NCBI RefSeq assembly: GCF_900104685.1
Contig: NZ_LT629755.1
Coordinates: 806,001-870,000, forward strand
DNA length: 64,000 nucleotides
From: Agromyces flavus
Lineage (GTDB): Bacteria; Actinomycetota; Actinomycetes; Actinomycetales; Microbacteriaceae
Reading direction: 5' to 3'
Shown here: piece after piece, positions 1 to 6,563 of the stretch
Layout: every line of letters starts with the position of its first letter
How positions within the stretch are numbered: the first letter of the stretch is position 1
Made by a program: the position numbers and the translations under genes
The notes under the pieces: model-generated
Seen by the model: the letters and a program-made list of their open reading frames with translations, nothing else
The model's database searches: none
What the model was told of the DNA's origin: nothing

Positions 1-12
1 CCGAGGGCGACC

Positions 13-34
13 GGATACCACGTCGTCGCAACGT
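13..34 (+). promoter_or_regulatory. Partial SARP-type promoter of the first small lipoprotein
   Basis: The 8-mer GGATACCA (13–20) is followed by 8 bp, the hexamer CAACGT (29–34) and 7 nt before the ATG at 42. The two complete sites at 4710–4764 and 5369–5423 have the same 8-mer to hexamer distance. In those sites two more 8-mers lie 22 and 33 bp upstream; here they would fall left of the window, so only the 3' end of the site is visible. Confidence 0.55.
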
Positions 35-41
35 GGATGGC

Positions 42-371
42 ATGAACACCGCAACGACCACCCTTCGCCTCACCGCCGCTGCCGCATTCGTGGCACTGGC
101 GGGCACGCTCGCCGGGTGCGCGGCCGCCGAGAACGCGGCCGTGTCCGGGCCAGCCGCGGGCAACGCCGCGAACCGGGCTCCCGTTTCGGCCGCCCTCCAC
201 CTTGCACTCGCCCGCTCGGCCGCCGACCGTTACGTGAGCGAACTCGAGGTGCGCCACGACCTCGCGACGCGGTCGCTCCACGAGGCCGCCGACCGCTACC
301 TGAACGACCTCCTCGTCCACGCACGCATGGCCGCCGAGGGCGATGCACCCGGCTGGTCCGCCGGAGACTGA
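42..371 (+). CDS. Small secreted lipoprotein with AADRY repeats
   Basis: A 109-residue protein with a lipoprotein signal peptide: Thr/Arg-containing n-region, Ala-rich core, and lipobox L-A-G-C with the lipidated Cys at residue 26. The mature part is Ala-rich and carries two copies of a short motif, A-A-D-R-Y-x-x-x-L, near residues 60 and 82. This recalls the A-E-R-R-L motif of the lipoproteins at 4771 and 5430, and all three begin Met-Asn-Thr. I chose ATG 42 over the in-frame GTG at 33 because it gives a clean signal peptide and sits 7 nt after the -10-like hexamer. It converges on the regulator gene ending at 413 across a shared hairpin. No known family is recognised; function unknown, with a role as partner or target of the adjacent regulator inferred from context. 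Confidence 0.7.
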   Translation: MNTATTTLRLTAAAAFVALAGTLAGCAAAENAAVSGPAAGNAANRAPVSAALHLALARSAADRYVSELEVRHDLATRSLHEAADRYLNDLLVHARMAAEGDAPGWSAGD

Positions 372-378
372 ACGACCC

Positions 379-408
379 GAAGGGGGCCGGCGGCGGGCGG
401 CCCCCTTC
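379..408. terminator. Bidirectional hairpin between convergent lipoprotein and regulator genes
   Basis: A perfect 11-bp stem (379–389 with 398–408) around an 8-nt GC-rich loop lies between the lipoprotein stop (371) and the regulator stop (413, minus strand). There is a short T run on the plus side only, so termination strength is uncertain. Confidence 0.65.
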
Positions 409-412
409 TCCG

Positions 413-3400
413 TCAACCTTCCGCGTCGACGGCGGCGCTGGCTTCGTCGAGGATCCAAGCGCAGGTGGCGACCTGCGGCTCCTCTCCGAAGTACGCCTTC
501 CACTCGAGTTCGCTGAGCTCGCGACCGACCAGGCGGCACGCTGCCTGGGCGAGCCGCTCGGGTCGGATGTCCCAGATGAGGACGCCGTACTCCGAGTTGG
601 TGGCAATTCGGGTGCCGTCGCGGCTGATGAAGCTCGCCGGGAAGTCCTGCCCGTCCTGAGCGACCACGCGGAGGGGCGTGCCCAGGCGGCGGGCGTCGCC
701 CATGTCGTAGAGCGAGAGACGGTTGTCCCAGTCGTCCATCAGGAGCAGGTCCTCGCTTGCCGTGAGCTGCATGGCCCGGGCGGCGACGCCTGACGTGGGC
801 AACGCCGCGAGCGCCTCGAGCTCGGCGTCGCTGCGCGTCAGGCGTGCCGTGCTCGCACTCAGCAATTCCGCCTCGCCGGTCGCGACGACGGGACCGTCGT
901 CGGCGAGCCCGCGCGCGAGTTCCTCGCCGGTGTAGAGGTCGAACATGGCGGTGAGCATCCGCAGCTCGTCAGGATCGAACCAGTTCACCGCGACGCGGCG
1001 TCCATCGCCGAGTTCCGCGACGCTGCCCGACCACTGAGCGAGCTGAACCCCCGGAACGACCATCGGCGACCCGATCGCCTCGCCCGTACCGGGATCCACC
1101 GCGGTGACCCGTTCGCCATCGACCACGAACGCCAGCGGGCCATTGCCTCCCGAAAGCGTCGACACGAGCCCGTCCTCGGAGAGCGGAGGCAGGCTCCTCG
1201 ACTCCTCGGTCAGCACGTCGACGACCGTCGGATCGCCATCCGGATGCCAGGCGAACGCGTGCTGGTCGTCGGCCCACACCAGCGCGTCGTACGACTGGCC
1301 GAGGGGACGATCCGCCTCCACGTCCCAGAGTTGCACGCCGCCGACGTTCTCCTCGGGACGCCAGCCCGCCGGCGCCGTGACGACGAGCCGTCCGCCGTCG
1401 CCGAACCCGTCGACCACCATTCGGCCCGGCGCGACCCGCGTCGTCACCGATGGAGCCTGATCCAGGCGCCAATGGGCGAGGAACGGGCCCTCACGCTCGG
1501 CGATCGTCAGGAACTCGTCGTCATCGAGCAGGTCGAGGCTCCTCGTCCAGTCGGACAGGCTCGGGAACGATCGGCCGGTGGGTTGACCGGTTGCGAGATC
1601 GTACTCGAGGATCGTGCCGGGGACGTCCCGGCACAGCAGCGTCCCCGAGGCCGGCGGAACCACGGCATCCAGGCAGGTCGTCGGGTCGACCTCGCGCTGC
1701 CAACGCAGTTCGCCGGTCCGTCGGTCGACAAGACCGAGACGTTCCATGCCGGCGGCGAAGATCAGGTCGTCGTCCACTTCCAGGACGACCCACTCGTTCA
1801 TGGCATCGGGCAACTCGACCCGGTCGATCACCTCGAACGTCGTCGGATCGTGCACGATGATGCTCCCGGGGCCACCGACGAGATACGTGCCGTCGCTCGC
1901 GATCGAGACCGTGGTGTAGCGTCCCTCGACCCCCTGGTACTTCTCCGGCGGACCCGGCAGGGGAGTCAGCAGCCGGCCGGTGGCCGTGTCGATGACGATC
2001 AACTCGCCGGTGATCGGATGGATCAGGGCGACCCTCGAGCCGTCGGGGGTGATCGCGAACGCGTTGCCCGTTCGTGAGTCCAGTTCGATCGTGTCGACCA
2101 GACGGTCTCCGCTGCGCAGGTCGATGAGGTCGATGAAGTTCAGGCAGCACGACTCCGGATCGTCGGGATCGCGGTTCCAGGACGTCTGGACGGCGGCGAC
2201 CGACCCGTCGGCGCTGACGCGCACGGTACGCGGGAACCAGGTGGACTCCGACTTCACCTCGACGGGGAGTTCGCGGACCTCGCTGCTCGTGTCGATGTCG
2301 ACGATCGAGACCACCGGCTTCCTCGAGCCCTCGTCCGACGAAACGTCACGTACGAGGATCGCCGTACGAGTGCCCGGAATCGGGGCGCCCACCAGCCTGT
2401 CGCCGTGGGCGAACCGGAGCCGCGAGGCCAGGCCGTCGCCGACGGCGACGGTCCCCCAGAGCGCCGAATAGGAACGGGAGTCGTCGGGCCACCGCCGATG
2501 GAGTTCCGCCGCGAGCAACGCCGCCACACCCGGGTCGGACTCGCGCAGCGCGAGCGAGGTCGAGGTGAGGGCTTCGATCTGCCGGTCGAGAGCGCTCTGC
2601 TCGGCCTCGTCGCTTTTCACGAAGACGAAGGCTGACGCGATGACCGTCACGACCACCAGCGCGGCGGCTGCGATGAGCGCCCAACGCAGCCTCAGGTTCT
2701 GCCGACGGTCCCGTCGGGCGCGTTCGGCCTCCATGCGACGCTCGCTCTGGTCGCGGTCGAGCGAAGCGTCGAGAAAATCGCGTTCCACCTCGGTGAGGTC
2801 GGGTGAGGATGTCTCGCGCCAGTCGATCGTGGCCTGGAGGCGGCCGCCCCGATACAGTTCATCGTCAGGCCGCCCGTCGGCGTTCCACGTCTCGGCGGCC
2901 GCCGCGATCGCGGCCAAGGTACGTGCACTCTCGGCGTCCTCCTCCAGCCAGGAGCGCAGGCGCGGCCAGGCGGTCGCGAGCGATTCATGTGCGACGGCGA
3001 CGGAGTCCGCCTCCGCGCTGACGAGTCGCGAACCGGCGAGCATCGCCAGCACTTCGTCGCGGGCGGCATCCGCCCGGAGCGGCTTCGCTGCGGCGCGGCG
3101 TCGAACCGGACTGCCGTCGGGTGCCAAGGCGACGAGCCGCATCAGCACGGATCGGCAGAGGGCGCGCTGTGTCGCGTCCATCGACTGGTAGAGCCGGTCC
3201 GCCGACTGGGCGATGGCGCCGGAGATGCCGCCCGACGCCTCGTACCCCGCGACCGTGAGCGTCGCGCCCTCGCGCCGGAGCCAGGTCTCGACGAGCGCAT
3301 GAGACATGTGCGGGAGCGCCCCCGGCTCGCCCGCCGCATCCCGCACGATCACCTCGACGAGTCCGGGCTCGAGACGGAGTCCCGCGCGCCGGGCCGGCTC

Positions 3401-4657
3401 CTCGATCGCGGCCTTGAGCGCATCCGGCCCCATGGGTCCGAGGAGATGCACTCCCTCGGCGACGAGTCGCGCGAGCTCGGGATGTGCCGCGCAGTCGTCC
3501 AGGAAGTCCGACCGGACCACGACGACGACGTTCGTGCCTGCCTCGACGGCGTCGACGATCGCAGTCGCGGTCCCGTCGACGTCCGAACGCCCGGCGTGGA
3601 AGACCTCCTCGAACTGATCGATGACGATCACGTCAGCTCCGCCCGACGATCCGGCCGCGTCCCGAACGCGGATGTCGACGTCATGTGCGGGCGTGAAGAT
3701 CGCCACACGGTCGCCGCGCCGTTGCAGGGCCGGAACCACTCCGGCTCGCACGAGCGAGGACTTGCCGCTGCCCGATGCGCCGGAGATCGCGAGGAACGGT
3801 GCTCGTGCGAGCCGTGCGAGCGCCGCGGCGATGTCCGCGTCGCGCCCGAAGAAGTCGTCCGCATCCTCGACGCCGAACGGATGTAGCCCGTGATAGGGGC
3901 AGGCGGGGCTCACGTCGCCAGGCGCATCGGGCGGCGCGAGCGTGGGATCGTGGCGGAGAATCGCCAACTTGAGCGACTCCAACTCCTCGCCGAGGTCGAT
4001 GCCGAGCTCATCTCCGAGGCGCTCGCGCGCCGCTCGGATCGCGGCGAGGGCGTCCGCCTGACGCCCGCTCCGGTACAAAACGGTCGCGAGCAGCACCCAT
4101 CGCGACTCCCTGAGCGGTGACTCGCGAACGAGTCGCTCCGCCTCGGGGATCACCGCGCGATGGTCGCCGAGGCGCAACCGCTCGCCAGCCAGTTCCTCGT
4201 CGACATCCGACCGGATCTCGGCGAGCCGATCGGCTTCGGCGGCTCCGGGCGGCCAGCCCGCGAGGTCGGGGTACGGCCTGCCACGCCAGAGCGCGAGCGC
4301 GCGCTGGAACCCGTCGACGGCTCGCGCGGGGTCGCCGTCGAGGGCGTGCCCGCGCGCCGCCGTGACCAGCCGCTCGAAGCGCACCGCATCGATCGAGTCC
4401 GGATCGATGTCGAGACGATAGCCGCCCGCCTCGGTCCGGATGGCGCGAGTCCCGAGCGTGCGGCGGAGGCGCGTGATCGTCGCCTGCACCTGCTTCGGCC
4501 AGGTGGACGCGACCTGCTCGGGCCACAGCGCGTCGGCGAGTTCATCCAGGCTCGCGACTTCGCCCGAACGTGCCACGAGCACCGAGAGGACGATGCGTTC
4601 TCTCGGGCTGATCGGCCCTTCGTCGACTTCCACGGGGCCGAGTACCCGGACGCCCAT
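413..4657 (-). CDS. Membrane-anchored SARP/BTAD–STAND ATPase–beta-propeller regulator
   Basis: A 1414-residue one-protein signalling chain. Residues 1–85 form an OmpR-like winged helix and about 90–235 a bacterial transcriptional activator (BTAD) domain, the SARP/AfsR combination. Residues 252–640 are a STAND-type ATPase with Walker A G-A-S-G-S-G-K-S (293–300) and Walker B V-I-V-I-D-Q-F-E-E (343–351). An Arg-rich stretch (646–658) precedes one membrane helix (about 660–680), which by the positive-inside rule puts the N-terminal half in the cytoplasm. The remaining ~735 residues are WD40/PQQ-like propeller repeats, probably outside the cell, ending in A-C-R-L-x-x-R-E-L and E-W. The start at 4657 is used because a longer frame would run through the promoter repeats and into the divergent lipoprotein. 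Probable target: the lipoprotein promoters carrying 11-bp-spaced repeats on either side. The domain calls are solid; the ligand and regulon are inferred. Confidence 0.85.
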   Translation of the reverse strand: MGVRVLGPVEVDEGPISPRERIVLSVLVARSGEVASLDELADALWPEQVASTWPKQVQATITRLRRTLGTRAIRTEAGGYRLDIDPDSIDAVRFERLVTAARGHALDGDPARAVDGFQRALALWRGRPYPDLAGWPPGAAEADRLAEIRSDVDEELAGERLRLGDHRAVIPEAERLVRESPLRESRWVLLATVLYRSGRQADALAAIRAARERLGDELGIDLGEELESLKLAILRHDPTLAPPDAPGDVSPACPYHGLHPFGVEDADDFFGRDADIAAALARLARAPFLAISGASGSGKSSLVRAGVVPALQRRGDRVAIFTPAHDVDIRVRDAAGSSGGADVIVIDQFEEVFHAGRSDVDGTATAIVDAVEAGTNVVVVVRSDFLDDCAAHPELARLVAEGVHLLGPMGPDALKAAIEEPARRAGLRLEPGLVEVIVRDAAGEPGALPHMSHALVETWLRREGATLTVAGYEASGGISGAIAQSADRLYQSMDATQRALCRSVLMRLVALAPDGSPVRRRAAAKPLRADAARDEVLAMLAGSRLVSAEADSVAVAHESLATAWPRLRSWLEEDAESARTLAAIAAAAETWNADGRPDDELYRGGRLQATIDWRETSSPDLTEVERDFLDASLDRDQSERRMEAERARRDRRQNLRLRWALIAAAALVVVTVIASAFVFVKSDEAEQSALDRQIEALTSTSLALRESDPGVAALLAAELHRRWPDDSRSYSALWGTVAVGDGLASRLRFAHGDRLVGAPIPGTRTAILVRDVSSDEGSRKPVVSIVDIDTSSEVRELPVEVKSESTWFPRTVRVSADGSVAAVQTSWNRDPDDPESCCLNFIDLIDLRSGDRLVDTIELDSRTGNAFAITPDGSRVALIHPITGELIVIDTATGRLLTPLPGPPEKYQGVEGRYTTVSIASDGTYLVGGPGSIIVHDPTTFEVIDRVELPDAMNEWVVLEVDDDLIFAAGMERLGLVDRRTGELRWQREVDPTTCLDAVVPPASGTLLCRDVPGTILEYDLATGQPTGRSFPSLSDWTRSLDLLDDDEFLTIAEREGPFLAHWRLDQAPSVTTRVAPGRMVVDGFGDGGRLVVTAPAGWRPEENVGGVQLWDVEADRPLGQSYDALVWADDQHAFAWHPDGDPTVVDVLTEESRSLPPLSEDGLVSTLSGGNGPLAFVVDGERVTAVDPGTGEAIGSPMVVPGVQLAQWSGSVAELGDGRRVAVNWFDPDELRMLTAMFDLYTGEELARGLADDGPVVATGEAELLSASTARLTRSDAELEALAALPTSGVAARAMQLTASEDLLLMDDWDNRLSLYDMGDARRLGTPLRVVAQDGQDFPASFISRDGTRIATNSEYGVLIWDIRPERLAQAACRLVGRELSELEWKAYFGEEPQVATCAWILDEASAAVDAEG

Positions 4658-4709
4658 GGCCGCAGTCTTCGCCTCGCGAGGAAGCGATGTCAACGTCCCG
4701 GTTCGAGGG

Positions 4710-4764
4710 GTATACCGGATGTATACCGTTCGCACGTCGAGCGCATACCGCCAGGAGCGACGCT
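4710..4764 (+). promoter_or_regulatory. SARP-type direct-repeat promoter of the second lipoprotein
   Basis: Direct repeats GTATACCG at 4710 and again at 4721 (11 bp apart), then GCATACCG at 4743 (22 bp further). Eight bp after the last repeat lies the hexamer GACGCT (4759–4764), then 6 nt and the ATG at 4771. There is no recognisable -35 box. SARP proteins of the AfsR type are known to bind direct repeats at 11- or 22-bp spacing ending about 8 bp before the -10, and this site fits that rule exactly. It lies in the divergent region shared with the regulator gene. Confidence 0.75.
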
Positions 4765-4770
4765 GCGAGC

Positions 4771-5130
4771 ATGAACACCAAGACCGGAACCCGCGCCGCC
4801 GCTGCACTCGCCGCTGCCGCGCTCATCGCCTCGCTCGCCGGCTGCGCCGGCACGGCCTCGAAGGTCGACACGTCCTCGAAGGAGCGATCGCTCACCGATG
4901 TCGCCGAGCGACAACTCGCATTGCGACCGAGTTCCCGAACGGATGTCGCTGAACGACGTCTCCTGCTCGGTGAGCCCCCGGTGAACGGCGGTGCTTCGGT
5001 GACCGCACCGCGCACGCCGGCACCTGCGCTCCCCGACGTCGCCGAGCGACGCCAATGGATGCGCGGCGAACTGAACGAGTCGACTGCGATCCCGGACGTC
5101 GCGGAGCGGCGCCTCTGGATCTCGCACTGA
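4771..5130 (+). CDS. Small secreted lipoprotein with four D-V-A-E-R-R repeats
   Basis: A 119-residue protein with signal peptide and lipobox L-A-G-C (Cys 25). The mature chain holds four copies of a D-V-A-E-R-(R/Q)-x-(L/W)-(L/M/I) motif starting at Asp 43, 58, 89 and 109. They are separated by poorly conserved linkers rich in Pro, Thr and Ser. The last copy ends two residues before the C terminus. Spaced identical short peptides in a secreted carrier recall either repeated docking motifs or peptide precursors; neither is shown. It is divergent from the SARP/STAND regulator (113 bp between the starts) and is followed by a hairpin at 5140–5174. The predicted transcript starts at or near the ATG, so it may be leaderless. 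No known family is recognised. Confidence 0.75.
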   Translation: MNTKTGTRAAAALAAAALIASLAGCAGTASKVDTSSKERSLTDVAERQLALRPSSRTDVAERRLLLGEPPVNGGASVTAPRTPAPALPDVAERRQWMRGELNESTAIPDVAERRLWISH

Positions 5131-5139
5131 ACGGACGCG

Positions 5140-5174
5140 GACGGCGGGGCGGGTGACGTGCCGGTCCCGCCGTC
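5140..5174. terminator. Hairpin after the second lipoprotein
   Basis: A perfect 9-bp stem (5140–5148 with 5166–5174) with a 17-nt loop follows the stop codon at 5130. Its position mirrors the hairpin at 379–408 after the first lipoprotein: both sit where a lipoprotein gene converges on the tail of a regulator gene or its remnant. Confidence 0.5.
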
Positions 5175-5264
5175 GGTGTCGTCGCCCGTCGAGCGGCGCA
5201 GACGACACGTACTCGGCGCGATGGTCAGCCTCCGGCGAAACTGCACGTCGAGCGAGAGGAGCCC

Positions 5265-5345
5265 CAGATCCGCGAGGGAGGTCAGCCACTCGTCGTGGGT
5301 GAGGTCGCGACTGGCTATCCGGCACGCCGGATCCGCATGTGACGA
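5265..5345 (-). pseudogene. Remnant of the C-terminal tail of a second SARP/STAND regulator
   Basis: Read on the minus strand, this stretch gives P-A-C-R-I-A-S-R-D-L-T-H-D-E-W. It matches the end of the intact regulator (A-A-C-R-L-V-G-R-E-L-S-E-L-E-W) in spacing and chemistry. Only about 25–35 codons are recognisable. Immediately upstream (5369 onward) the next lipoprotein promoter begins, so almost all of the original gene is missing, and the frame downstream of the match has no stop near where the intact gene has one. The order lipoprotein, hairpin, regulator tail, promoter repeats, lipoprotein is the same as at 42–4771, which fits a tandem duplication followed by deletion. Confidence 0.6.
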
Positions 5346-5368
5346 TGTCAACGATCGTGGAGCCTGAG

Positions 5369-5423
5369 CCATACCCATTCCATACCGATCGCGTCACAGC
5401 TCCATACCGGCGCGCACGAGCAT
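5369..5423 (+). promoter_or_regulatory. SARP-type direct-repeat promoter of the third lipoprotein
   Basis: Direct repeats CCATACCC (5369), CCATACCG (5380) and CCATACCG (5402) have starts offset by 0, 11 and 33 bp, exactly as at 4710–4750. Eight bp later comes GAGCAT (5418–5423), then 6 nt to the ATG at 5430. The conserved part of all repeats in the window is ATACC. Confidence 0.75.
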
Positions 5424-5429
5424 GCGGTC

Positions 5430-5672
5430 ATGAACACCACGAAGCGCACATGGAAGACCGCCATCGGCATCGCCCTCGCCGCGACGCTGACCACCGGCCT
5501 CGGCGCCTGCGCCGGGACCACCACCCCCGGCTTCTCATTCGCCGAGCGCCGCGCGAGCGACATCAGCCACGAGGTGGAGCGTGCCCAGAACCGGGTCGAG
5601 GCGTTCGCGCCGCGGGCCGAGTATCGCGACCAGGCCGAGCGCCGTCTCGACCTCGACCTCGCCGGCCGTTGA
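5430..5672 (+). CDS. Small secreted lipoprotein with A-E-R-R motifs
   Basis: An 80-residue protein beginning Met-Asn-Thr, with signal peptide and lipobox L-G-A-C (Cys 27). The mature part is only about 53 residues, mostly charged, and contains F-A-E-R-R-A (37–42) and D-Q-A-E-R-R-L (67–73), related to the D-V-A-E-R-R repeats of the lipoprotein at 4771. Its upstream region has the same three-repeat promoter. It has lost its neighbouring regulator gene (only a remnant lies at 5265–5345), so if expressed it probably depends on the intact regulator at 413–4657. Function unknown; not a family I recognise. Confidence 0.65.
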   Translation: MNTTKRTWKTAIGIALAATLTTGLGACAGTTTPGFSFAERRASDISHEVERAQNRVEAFAPRAEYRDQAERRLDLDLAGR

Positions 5673-5724: not shown

Positions 5725-6204
5725 ATGAGCCGCCAACCTGACGACGAGGATGACGCGCTCCGCTGGGAAGGCGACGACGACGGGTCGCTCGCGCCGGGCT
5801 GGAAGAAGGTCGGGACGCCTGTACCGCTCGCCTCGGCAGGCGCGACGGATGCCGCGACGTCCAGCTCGCCCGATGACGCGGTCGACGACACCGCCGACGA
5901 AGACGGCGCGCCCGCCCAGCCCGGCTCGGCTGAGCTCGTGCTGCTCGGCGTGTTCGGAGGCGTGTACCTCCTCTACACGCTCGGCTGGATCCTGAGCGTG
6001 CTGCGCGTGCAGAACACCGCCTCGGATCCGCTCGGCCAATTCATGTTCGCGCTCGGACTCTGGCTCGCCGTGCTCGCGCCGGCGCTGTGGTTCGGGGTGA
6101 CCTTCGCCCTGACGCGCGGCCGCACCCGAGCTCGCATCGTCTGGCTCCTGATCGGCGCCATCGTGCTGCTGCCCATCGCGTTCGTGGCGGGGGTGACCGC
6201 GTGA
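5725..6204 (+). CDS. Membrane protein with acidic N terminus, unknown function
   Basis: A 159-residue protein. Residues 1–68 are hydrophilic and rich in Asp, Glu, Ser and Pro and look disordered. Three hydrophobic helices follow at about 71–93, 105–128 and 138–159, so the N-terminal tail is probably cytoplasmic. It starts 6 nt after a TAGTCT hexamer (leaderless start likely) and overlaps the next gene by 4 bp, so the two are probably translated together. Homologous-looking membrane proteins occur near serA in related actinobacteria, but I do not know a function. Confidence 0.7.
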   Translation: MSRQPDDEDDALRWEGDDDGSLAPGWKKVGTPVPLASAGATDAATSSSPDDAVDDTADEDGAPAQPGSAELVLLGVFGGVYLLYTLGWILSVLRVQNTASDPLGQFMFALGLWLAVLAPALWFGVTFALTRGRTRARIVWLLIGAIVLLPIAFVAGVTA

Positions 6205-6563
6205 GCACCGGCGACGAGGTCACCGCGACCGCCCCCGCACGCCGCACGCCGTTCTGGCTCGAGCTGACGCTCGCCATCGCGTTCGGCCTGTTCTTCGCGT
6301 ACGACGCCTGGGAGGCGGTCGGCAACCTCATCGGCATGACGCAGGTCGCCTCGGCGCTCGAGACCTCGATCAACGGCGTCGGATGGCTCGTCCTCATCGC
6401 CGCCGCGGTCCTCCCCGTCGTGCTCTTCGCCGCCGCGTTCCTGCTCGGCCGCCGACGGACAGCGCCCGTCCAGGCAGCCCTGTACCTCTGCGGACTCGCG
6501 GTCTCGGCGGCGCTCTACCTCGACATCCTGCTCATGTTCGGCCCCGGCGCGCTGCTCGCCTGA
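6201..6563 (+). CDS. Small three-helix membrane protein, unknown function
   Basis: A 120-residue protein starting at GTG 6201, chosen because GTG overlaps the previous stop as GTGA, a usual sign of translational coupling. Three hydrophobic segments lie at about 18–40, 59–83 and 92–113, with short loops. It pairs with the membrane protein at 5725, and the two could form a small complex, but nothing else in the sequence points to a role. The serA gene follows after a 166-bp gap that has its own TAGGCT -10-like element near 6632. Confidence 0.65.
   Translation: MSTGDEVTATAPARRTPFWLELTLAIAFGLFFAYDAWEAVGNLIGMTQVASALETSINGVGWLVLIAAAVLPVVLFAAAFLLGRRRTAPVQAALYLCGLAVSAALYLDILLMFGPGALLA

Follow-up and report, generated by a model that had tools for sequence, protein, structure and literature searches.

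The regulator and its divergent partner

What does a transcription factor control if its DNA-binding head lies inside the cell and its sensor outside, and is the small exported protein encoded beside it a ligand, an effector or a bystander? The question is raised by the left end of a 64,000-nucleotide stretch of Agromyces flavus (contig NZ_LT629755.1, positions 806,001 to 870,000, hereafter the window; C1:806001-870000 of a 3.69-Mb, single-contig genome), where the regulator gene R4 stands back to back with LP2, the gene of a small repeat lipoprotein. Agromyces are soil bacteria. Judged from sequence, the pair is a real, recurrent and coherent system, and each unit is very probably a one-component transcription activator that spans the membrane and acts on a private target gene. 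The R4 unit comprises the following features, in window positions.

413..4657, minus strand: R4, a regulator of 1414 amino acids with SARP, nSTAND1, membrane helix and tandem beta-propellers (open reading frame (ORF), Pfam, family alignment, AlphaFold2 (AF2))
3956..4612, minus strand: SARP head of R4, OmpR-type DNA-binding domain (residues 16-82) and BTAD (89-234) (PF00486, PF03704)
2864..3898, minus strand: nSTAND1 NTPase of R4, residues 254-598 (PF20703)
2618..2683, minus strand: single membrane helix of R4, about residues 659-680, basic stretch on its N-terminal side (alignment of 39 regulators)
569..2437, minus strand: tandem beta-propellers of R4, about residues 741-1363, predicted to lie outside (AF2, PDB matches, cysteine pattern)
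4771..5130, plus strand: LP2, lipoprotein with four DVAERR/DVAERQ repeats, partner of R4 (ORF, homologues)
4712..4749, plus strand: LP2 operator, ATACC at 0, +11 and +33 (sequence pattern)
4759..4764, plus strand: LP2 -10 box GACGCT (promoter alignment position)
4689..4693, minus strand: TTGAC box of R4's own promoter, GTCAA on the plus strand (conserved position)

The likely natural start of R4 is the ATG at 4657; a longer ORF (to 4807) would overlap the operator and LP2. An earlier note on this DNA had proposed the domain order SARP, STAND, membrane helix and propeller, and Pfam, the family alignment, the AF2 model and PDB matches all bear it out. R4 has the OmpR-type DNA-binding domain followed by BTAD that marks the SARP family, both above cut-off, and a STAND NTPase (PF20703, E 2e-101) with the P-loop GASGSGKSS. 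The AF2 model of residues 690-1414 consists of tandem beta-propellers (pLDDT 88.5) with PDB matches to propellers, and Pfam returned no TPR match in this C-terminal part. The Arg-rich stretch reported earlier, RRDRRQNLRLR, precedes the membrane helix, and basic residues recur on this side across the 39 aligned regulators. One cysteine pair in the outer part is present in 38/38 regulators and another in 97%, and the outer cysteine count is even in 38 of 39 regulators, compared with 18 of 39 when the inner part is counted. Because of the basic residues before the helix, the conserved cysteine pairs and the even cysteine counts, the propellers probably lie outside the cell, as the note had supposed.

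The regulator was detected in 24 of 60 genus genomes at E<=1e-100. Our table of 44 regulators holds 43 of the 44 genus matches, leaving out a C-terminal fragment (G011:C668), and one regulator from another genus. A divergent ORF with a lipobox stands beside 36 of the 44, which answers in the affirmative whether the gene pair recurs in other genomes. Among 20 named loci matching the regulator, 11 belong to Agromyces, two to Actinotalea and one to Demequina, and the other six match the ATPase part alone. A search of 149 genomes of the phylum gave three with a match, our own included; of the other two, one has GATACC repeats and no partner that we recognised, and the second has neither.

A tandem array with gains and losses

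R4 belongs to a five-unit tandem array, R1 to R5, whose end is cut off by the window. The unit of regulator and divergent small exported-protein gene was duplicated in tandem, and the partner was kept in four of the five units. The remaining members are listed below.

C1:792528-about 796754, same strand as R4, left of the window: R1, with a divergent small lipoprotein at 796868-797239
C1:797282-about 801550, same strand as R4, left of the window: R2, a long open frame with no partner
C1:801651-about 805927, same strand as R4, left of the window: R3, frameshifted, partner LP1
42..371, plus strand: LP1, lipoprotein with two AADRY repeats, partner of the frameshifted R3 (ORF, array position, homologues)
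15..19, plus strand: last ATACC of the LP1 operator, upstream copies left of the window
29..34, plus strand: LP1 -10 box CAACGT (promoter alignment position)
5430..5672, plus strand: LP3, lipoprotein with AERR motifs, own regulator lost, resembling the partner in unit G044b (ORF)
5371..5408, plus strand: LP3 operator, ATACC at 0, +11 and +33 (sequence pattern)
5418..5423, plus strand: LP3 -10 box GAGCAT (promoter alignment position)
about 5262..5327, minus strand: R5 remnant, 22 residues of a regulator C-terminus (15/21 residues identical to R1)

R1, R2 and R4 are open frames in this genome, and four of its five BTAD matches fall inside the array. The earlier note had assigned three flanking lipoproteins to a single regulator. 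Three lipobox ORFs do exist, but by array position LP1 belongs to R3, LP2 to R4 and LP3 to R5. LP1 and LP3 have been retained although their own regulators are broken (R3) or nearly deleted (R5).

The frameshift in R3 falls directly behind the membrane helix and splits SARP, STAND and helix from the propellers; genomes G031 and G003 also hold regulators cut short near this point. Between the array and serA (window 5725-6563) lie two small membrane-protein genes, h1 and h2, with no accepted family match; h1 adjoins a regulator in 18 of the 32 loci L067-L098.

Operators and promoters

The LP2 and LP3 operators are alike in spacing and both finish 21 nucleotides (nt) ahead of the ATG, and the LP1 operator has four ATACC copies at spacings of 9, 11 and 21. 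The exact triple operator occurs twice in the window versus never in 100 dinucleotide shuffles, and with up to two mismatches it has three matches in the whole genome. Among the 60 genus genomes it is present exactly in 15 (reversed-pattern control, 0/60), all of which are among the 24 with a regulator (P about 2.5e-8 if genomes are assumed independent). Among 398 family genomes it was found in five, four of them of the same genus, against one match for the control. None of the 25 exact genus sites is more than 1.25 kb away from a regulator, and the single one-mismatch site in the 60 genomes is also in an array.

The distinct exact sites number 26 (25 from the genus and one from another genus; 27 rows with one duplicate), and in 24 of them an A stands at +11 and a T at +15 past the last ATACC, with the ATG 21-22 nt away. 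Of the two exceptions, one has no gene that we found behind it and the other is the first of two overlapping sites. The A and T are kept in 20/20 promoters with a 21-22 nt gap, a count that omits 8 of 28 with another apparent gap (three where an earlier ATG was taken, two with LpqN-like partners, and G015a, G040 and G021). Relative to the ATG they are A-11 and T-7, one base further out at the 22-nt gap, and would form a putative xAxxxT -10 box of an almost leaderless transcript at ATACC promoters. The regulators' own promoters are recognisable by GTCAA 30-37 nt upstream in 43 of 44.

Some units use other half-sites, GATATC (six units, spacing 11/21) or GAGTACC (three units, 11/22), and keep the A and T in 9/9 promoters; in G024, a GATATC unit, only two exact half-sites remain, 32 bp apart. 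The ATG is farther from the operator in GATATC units (54-55 nt). In units with other half-sites a segment of the DNA-binding head differs as well (QQVRNAVAKIRSKL versus KQVQATITRLRRTL in R4), and we take this segment to be the recognition helix.

Published SARP sites consist of direct repeats spaced by 11 or 22 bp, with 8 bp between the 3' repeat and the -10 box (PMC10936776). The operators described here share this layout, with 21 instead of 22 in LP1 and the GATATC units. The notion that the lipoproteins are the regulator's regulon is thus strengthened by ATACC operators and -10 boxes in a SARP arrangement, which mark them as its predicted targets. The same paper also describes SARPs as activators of antibiotic biosynthesis (PMC10936776), and one could suppose that the regulators control distant genes, for example in secondary metabolism, with the lipoproteins as bystanders. 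We consider such a chance neighbourhood highly improbable, given that the exact and one-mismatch triple operators of the 60 genus genomes all lie in arrays and that 24 of the 26 exact sites precede a small exported-protein ORF.

Several observations weigh against a strict private circuit with an outside sensor. Eight of the 44 regulators have no lipobox partner, and R2, G019d and G012a are long open frames next to leftover operator repeats, so a regulator can outlive its partner. The promoters of two of the 36 partners (G036b and G007) break the -10 rule. Triple sites with two mismatches number 34 in the 60 genomes versus 17 for the reversed control; six of the 34 are identical in sequence, and those in G029 and G056 are two that have a regulator 0.5-4 kb away. 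Elsewhere, single or double half-sites might serve as additional targets. Finally, the outer cysteine count is odd in three of 11 more distant, near full-length relatives.

Two further loci deserve mention. In L087 (G046) a GAGTACC operator and a fitting -10 box precede an ORF that resembles a glyoxalase-fold protein and does not look exported. In L096 (G019:C16) a distant relative neighbours an ORF whose product resembles a PD40-type protein that is exported, and TAAC repeats occur there at a spacing of 11 bp.

Proposed mechanism

Operators, -10 boxes, pairing, tandem duplication and the predicted fold are read directly from the sequence, and from here on we infer activation, the direction of the signal and cross-regulation. 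The putative activation circuit is well supported by these features. A signal would be received by the tandem propellers outside, upon which the STAND ATPase inside would change state. The SARP heads would then bind side by side on direct repeats spaced by one and by two turns of DNA, recruit RNA polymerase as SARPs do and so compensate for an absent -35 contact. Transcription of the divergent small exported-protein gene would start, almost leaderless where the half-sites are ATACC. As the ATACC half-site is common to the operators of the array, cross-regulation is to be expected: R1, R2 and R4 probably act on LP1 and LP3 too, and the units may draw on one pool of partners. The exported proteins would most likely be both output and modulators of the receptor, in positive or negative feedback.

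STAND switches are common in bacteria, and their ligands and outputs are mostly unknown. Here the output of a STAND receptor can likely be read from DNA, with one promoter, one target and a visible operator code, and a STAND receptor with an outside sensor therefore becomes directly testable by reporter. The units also supply naturally occurring variants of receptor, operator and partner.

Exported partner proteins

LP1-LP3 each have a signal peptide and a lipobox cysteine, by pattern and inspection, and are predicted to be lipidated. Of the 36 lipobox partners 34 measure 47-147 amino acids and the other two 253 and 284. The partners in L016, L017, L019 and L026 appear secreted and have no lipobox, so "exported repeat protein" describes the class better than "lipoprotein". 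No Pfam or NCBIfam match above cut-off was found for LP1-LP3. At E<=0.001 LP2 matches 13 further homologues, of which the three with an organism name are from Agromyces.

The partners reuse a small set of motifs: AERR, ADRY, DPRGxH, DxLSPL and LRQ (LRQxxEED). Compared with shuffled sequences, motif counts in the 36 partners are 10 versus 0.84 for the ADRY type, 9 versus 0.42 for AERR, 5 versus 0.00 for DPRG, 3 versus 0.40 for DxLSP and 0 versus 0.00 for LRQ, with patterns that were composed after the sequences had been seen. By these written patterns a partner holds up to four copies of one motif. When the set is widened to 138 distinct sequences, at least two of seven motif patterns occur together in 22; P0056 combines ADRY, DPRG and DxLSP, and P0063 combines ADRY with four LRQ. 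An internal repeat is significant (p<=0.05, 60 shuffles) in 18 of the 36 partners and not significant in the other 18.

The partners could be the ordinary structural output of an envelope-homeostasis sensor, with motifs that bind cell-wall or membrane components; several dissimilar motifs on similar signal peptides and rapid turnover are unlike structural proteins, and we regard that role as improbable. Patchy presence (24/60 genomes), tandem gain and loss, the orphan partners LP1 and LP3 and shuffled motif modules would fit an inducible shield, in which the propellers would detect an outside threat or the state of the envelope (phage, toxin, glycan or antibiotic), with the repeat lipoprotein as effector, for example by blocking entry or binding the invader. 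Birth-and-death patterns are usual for conflict genes, and there are known cases of small repeat lipoproteins that keep phage DNA from entering. PADLOC, however, gave no match for LP1-LP3 and only weak matches to the ATPase (mad8, E 1.3e-6; mad3, E 9e-4), and PHROGs gave none for LP1-LP3, P0015 and P0056, in searches that did not extend to defence genes in the surroundings. A shield is conceivable, if rather unlikely.

Other observations concern the partner sequences themselves. C-termini are often GR or GH across motif classes (e.g., in the partners of L069, L071, L077 and L080-L082), in 10 of 36 units and in 29 of the 81 matches of an ADRY profile search. In family f17 (L131, L134, L135, L140 and L142) a small partner carries a C-terminal segment like IDDNxxExLQxGxGLLAGxALAG; L122 was omitted from the count, since a neighbouring regulator had been read in its place (the same as L139). 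P0016, an ADRY-class protein labelled "Streptomyces sp. ISL-90", is near-identical to the G048 partner, and its genome is possibly misnamed. Two family assignments came up for P0025: HK97-gp10_like reached 22.0 bits against a cut-off of 21.4 with no stretch significant alone and was taken as chance, and PF28408 was shown in the profile search and not returned by the Pfam scan.

Does the receptor sense its own partner?

The gene arrangement matches that of peptide autoinduction systems, and a receptor whose sole visible output is one exported motif protein makes either its own ligand or an effector. If the former, the exported motif-repeat protein would bind the propellers in a positive feedback as in peptide quorum sensing, and its repeats would cluster STAND receptors. 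The strongest argument is that all 25 exact sites and the single one-mismatch triple site of the 60 genus genomes are in arrays; with such operators confined to these loci, input and output may be one molecule. Adjacent regulator and exported-peptide genes as in Rgg-SHP (PMC3150281), the motif copies and internal repeats described above, and the presence of WDR5-peptide complexes among the propeller PDB matches point the same way.

Co-variation was assessed on 29 units and on 18 chosen by eye, both sets excluding the two LpqN-like partners and regulators under 1000 amino acids. The partial Mantel correlation of lipoprotein with propeller given the head is 0.25 (0/2000 permutations), in favour of a ligand, but that of lipoprotein with head given the propeller is much the same at 0.26. 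Rank correlations of lipoprotein with regulator divergence over 14 windows along the regulator are flat and weak (rho 0.01-0.17 for 18 units, 0.19-0.28 for 29). As the Mantel values are alike for head and propeller and the windowed correlations flat, we claim no co-variation of partner and propeller.

In G019b head and propeller fall into different clades, yet the DPRG partner is of the head's class. R4 is itself a mosaic, with head and ATPase closest to R1 and the ADRY clade and propellers like those of the GATATC clade. Together with the partnerless R2 and two others and the regulator-less LP1 and LP3, these mosaics appear to speak against strict one-receptor-one-ligand pairing. The correlations and the G019b mosaic leave the earlier suggestion, that the propeller senses the lipoproteins or what they bind, a conjecture. 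Weighing the survival of regulators and partners without each other and the 18 partners lacking a significant internal repeat as well, we hold the autoinducing ligand as possible and no more than tentative. Were the partner the ligand, the system would be a new bacterial signalling architecture, in which a single chain is both receptor and transcription factor.

A broader scheme is speculative, and we are inclined to doubt it: split-membrane, Apaf-1-like STAND receptors with a promoter-binding head might be gated by multivalent motif-repeat proteins displayed on the cell itself or on neighbouring cells. The gene of each receptor would adjoin that of its ligand, the receptor would activate the ligand gene, and arrays would diversify by tandem duplication and shuffling of motifs (AERR, ADRY, DPRGxH, DxLSPL, LRQxxEED) into a combinatorial code on the surface by which strains recognise kin or density.

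Comparison with known systems

ToxR/CadC-type regulators are likewise one-component transcription factors with the DNA-binding head inside and the sensor outside; to our knowledge they have no ATPase switch and no SARP activation domain, and their sensor folds are others. Apaf-1 of the apoptosome is soluble and works with procaspase-9, whereas R4 has a membrane helix between ATPase and propellers and a DNA-binding head.

STAND and propeller parts are also found in the STAND conflict systems described for multicellular bacteria (eLife 52696, 70394), whose main texts mention neither SARP nor BTAD. PimR, a SARP-LAL regulator, has a unique target gene, preceded by a main operator of three direct heptameric repeats (PMC5930380); there, however, the repeats are evenly spaced by 4 nt, the C-terminal half is different and the target is another regulator. 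Rgg-SHP resembles our units in that the regulator gene adjoins a small exported-peptide gene, with positive feedback (PMC3150281). It differs in its regulator, a member of the RRNPP family, and in the re-import of the peptides (PMC7564271).

The earlier note knew of no described system of this make-up. The literature searched, with subscription papers and preprints outside its scope and many texts available in part, likewise yielded no description of a transmembrane SARP with an exported partner. The closest known relation is AfsR-AfsS of Streptomyces coelicolor. AfsR is also a large SARP with a STAND-type ATPase that binds direct repeats 11 bp apart by a suboptimal -10 box (PMC10936776), and its target afsS encodes a 63-amino-acid protein with three 12-amino-acid repeats (PMC2267785). 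Against the NCBIfam AfsR model NF053617, R4 scores 130.8 bits, below the cut-off of 1430. In these sources AfsR is built of SARP, NOD, arm and TPR domains with no propeller and acts pleiotropically, and AfsS is described as a sigma-like regulator and not as an exported protein; in R4 the place of the C-terminal TPR sensor is taken by predicted tandem propellers.

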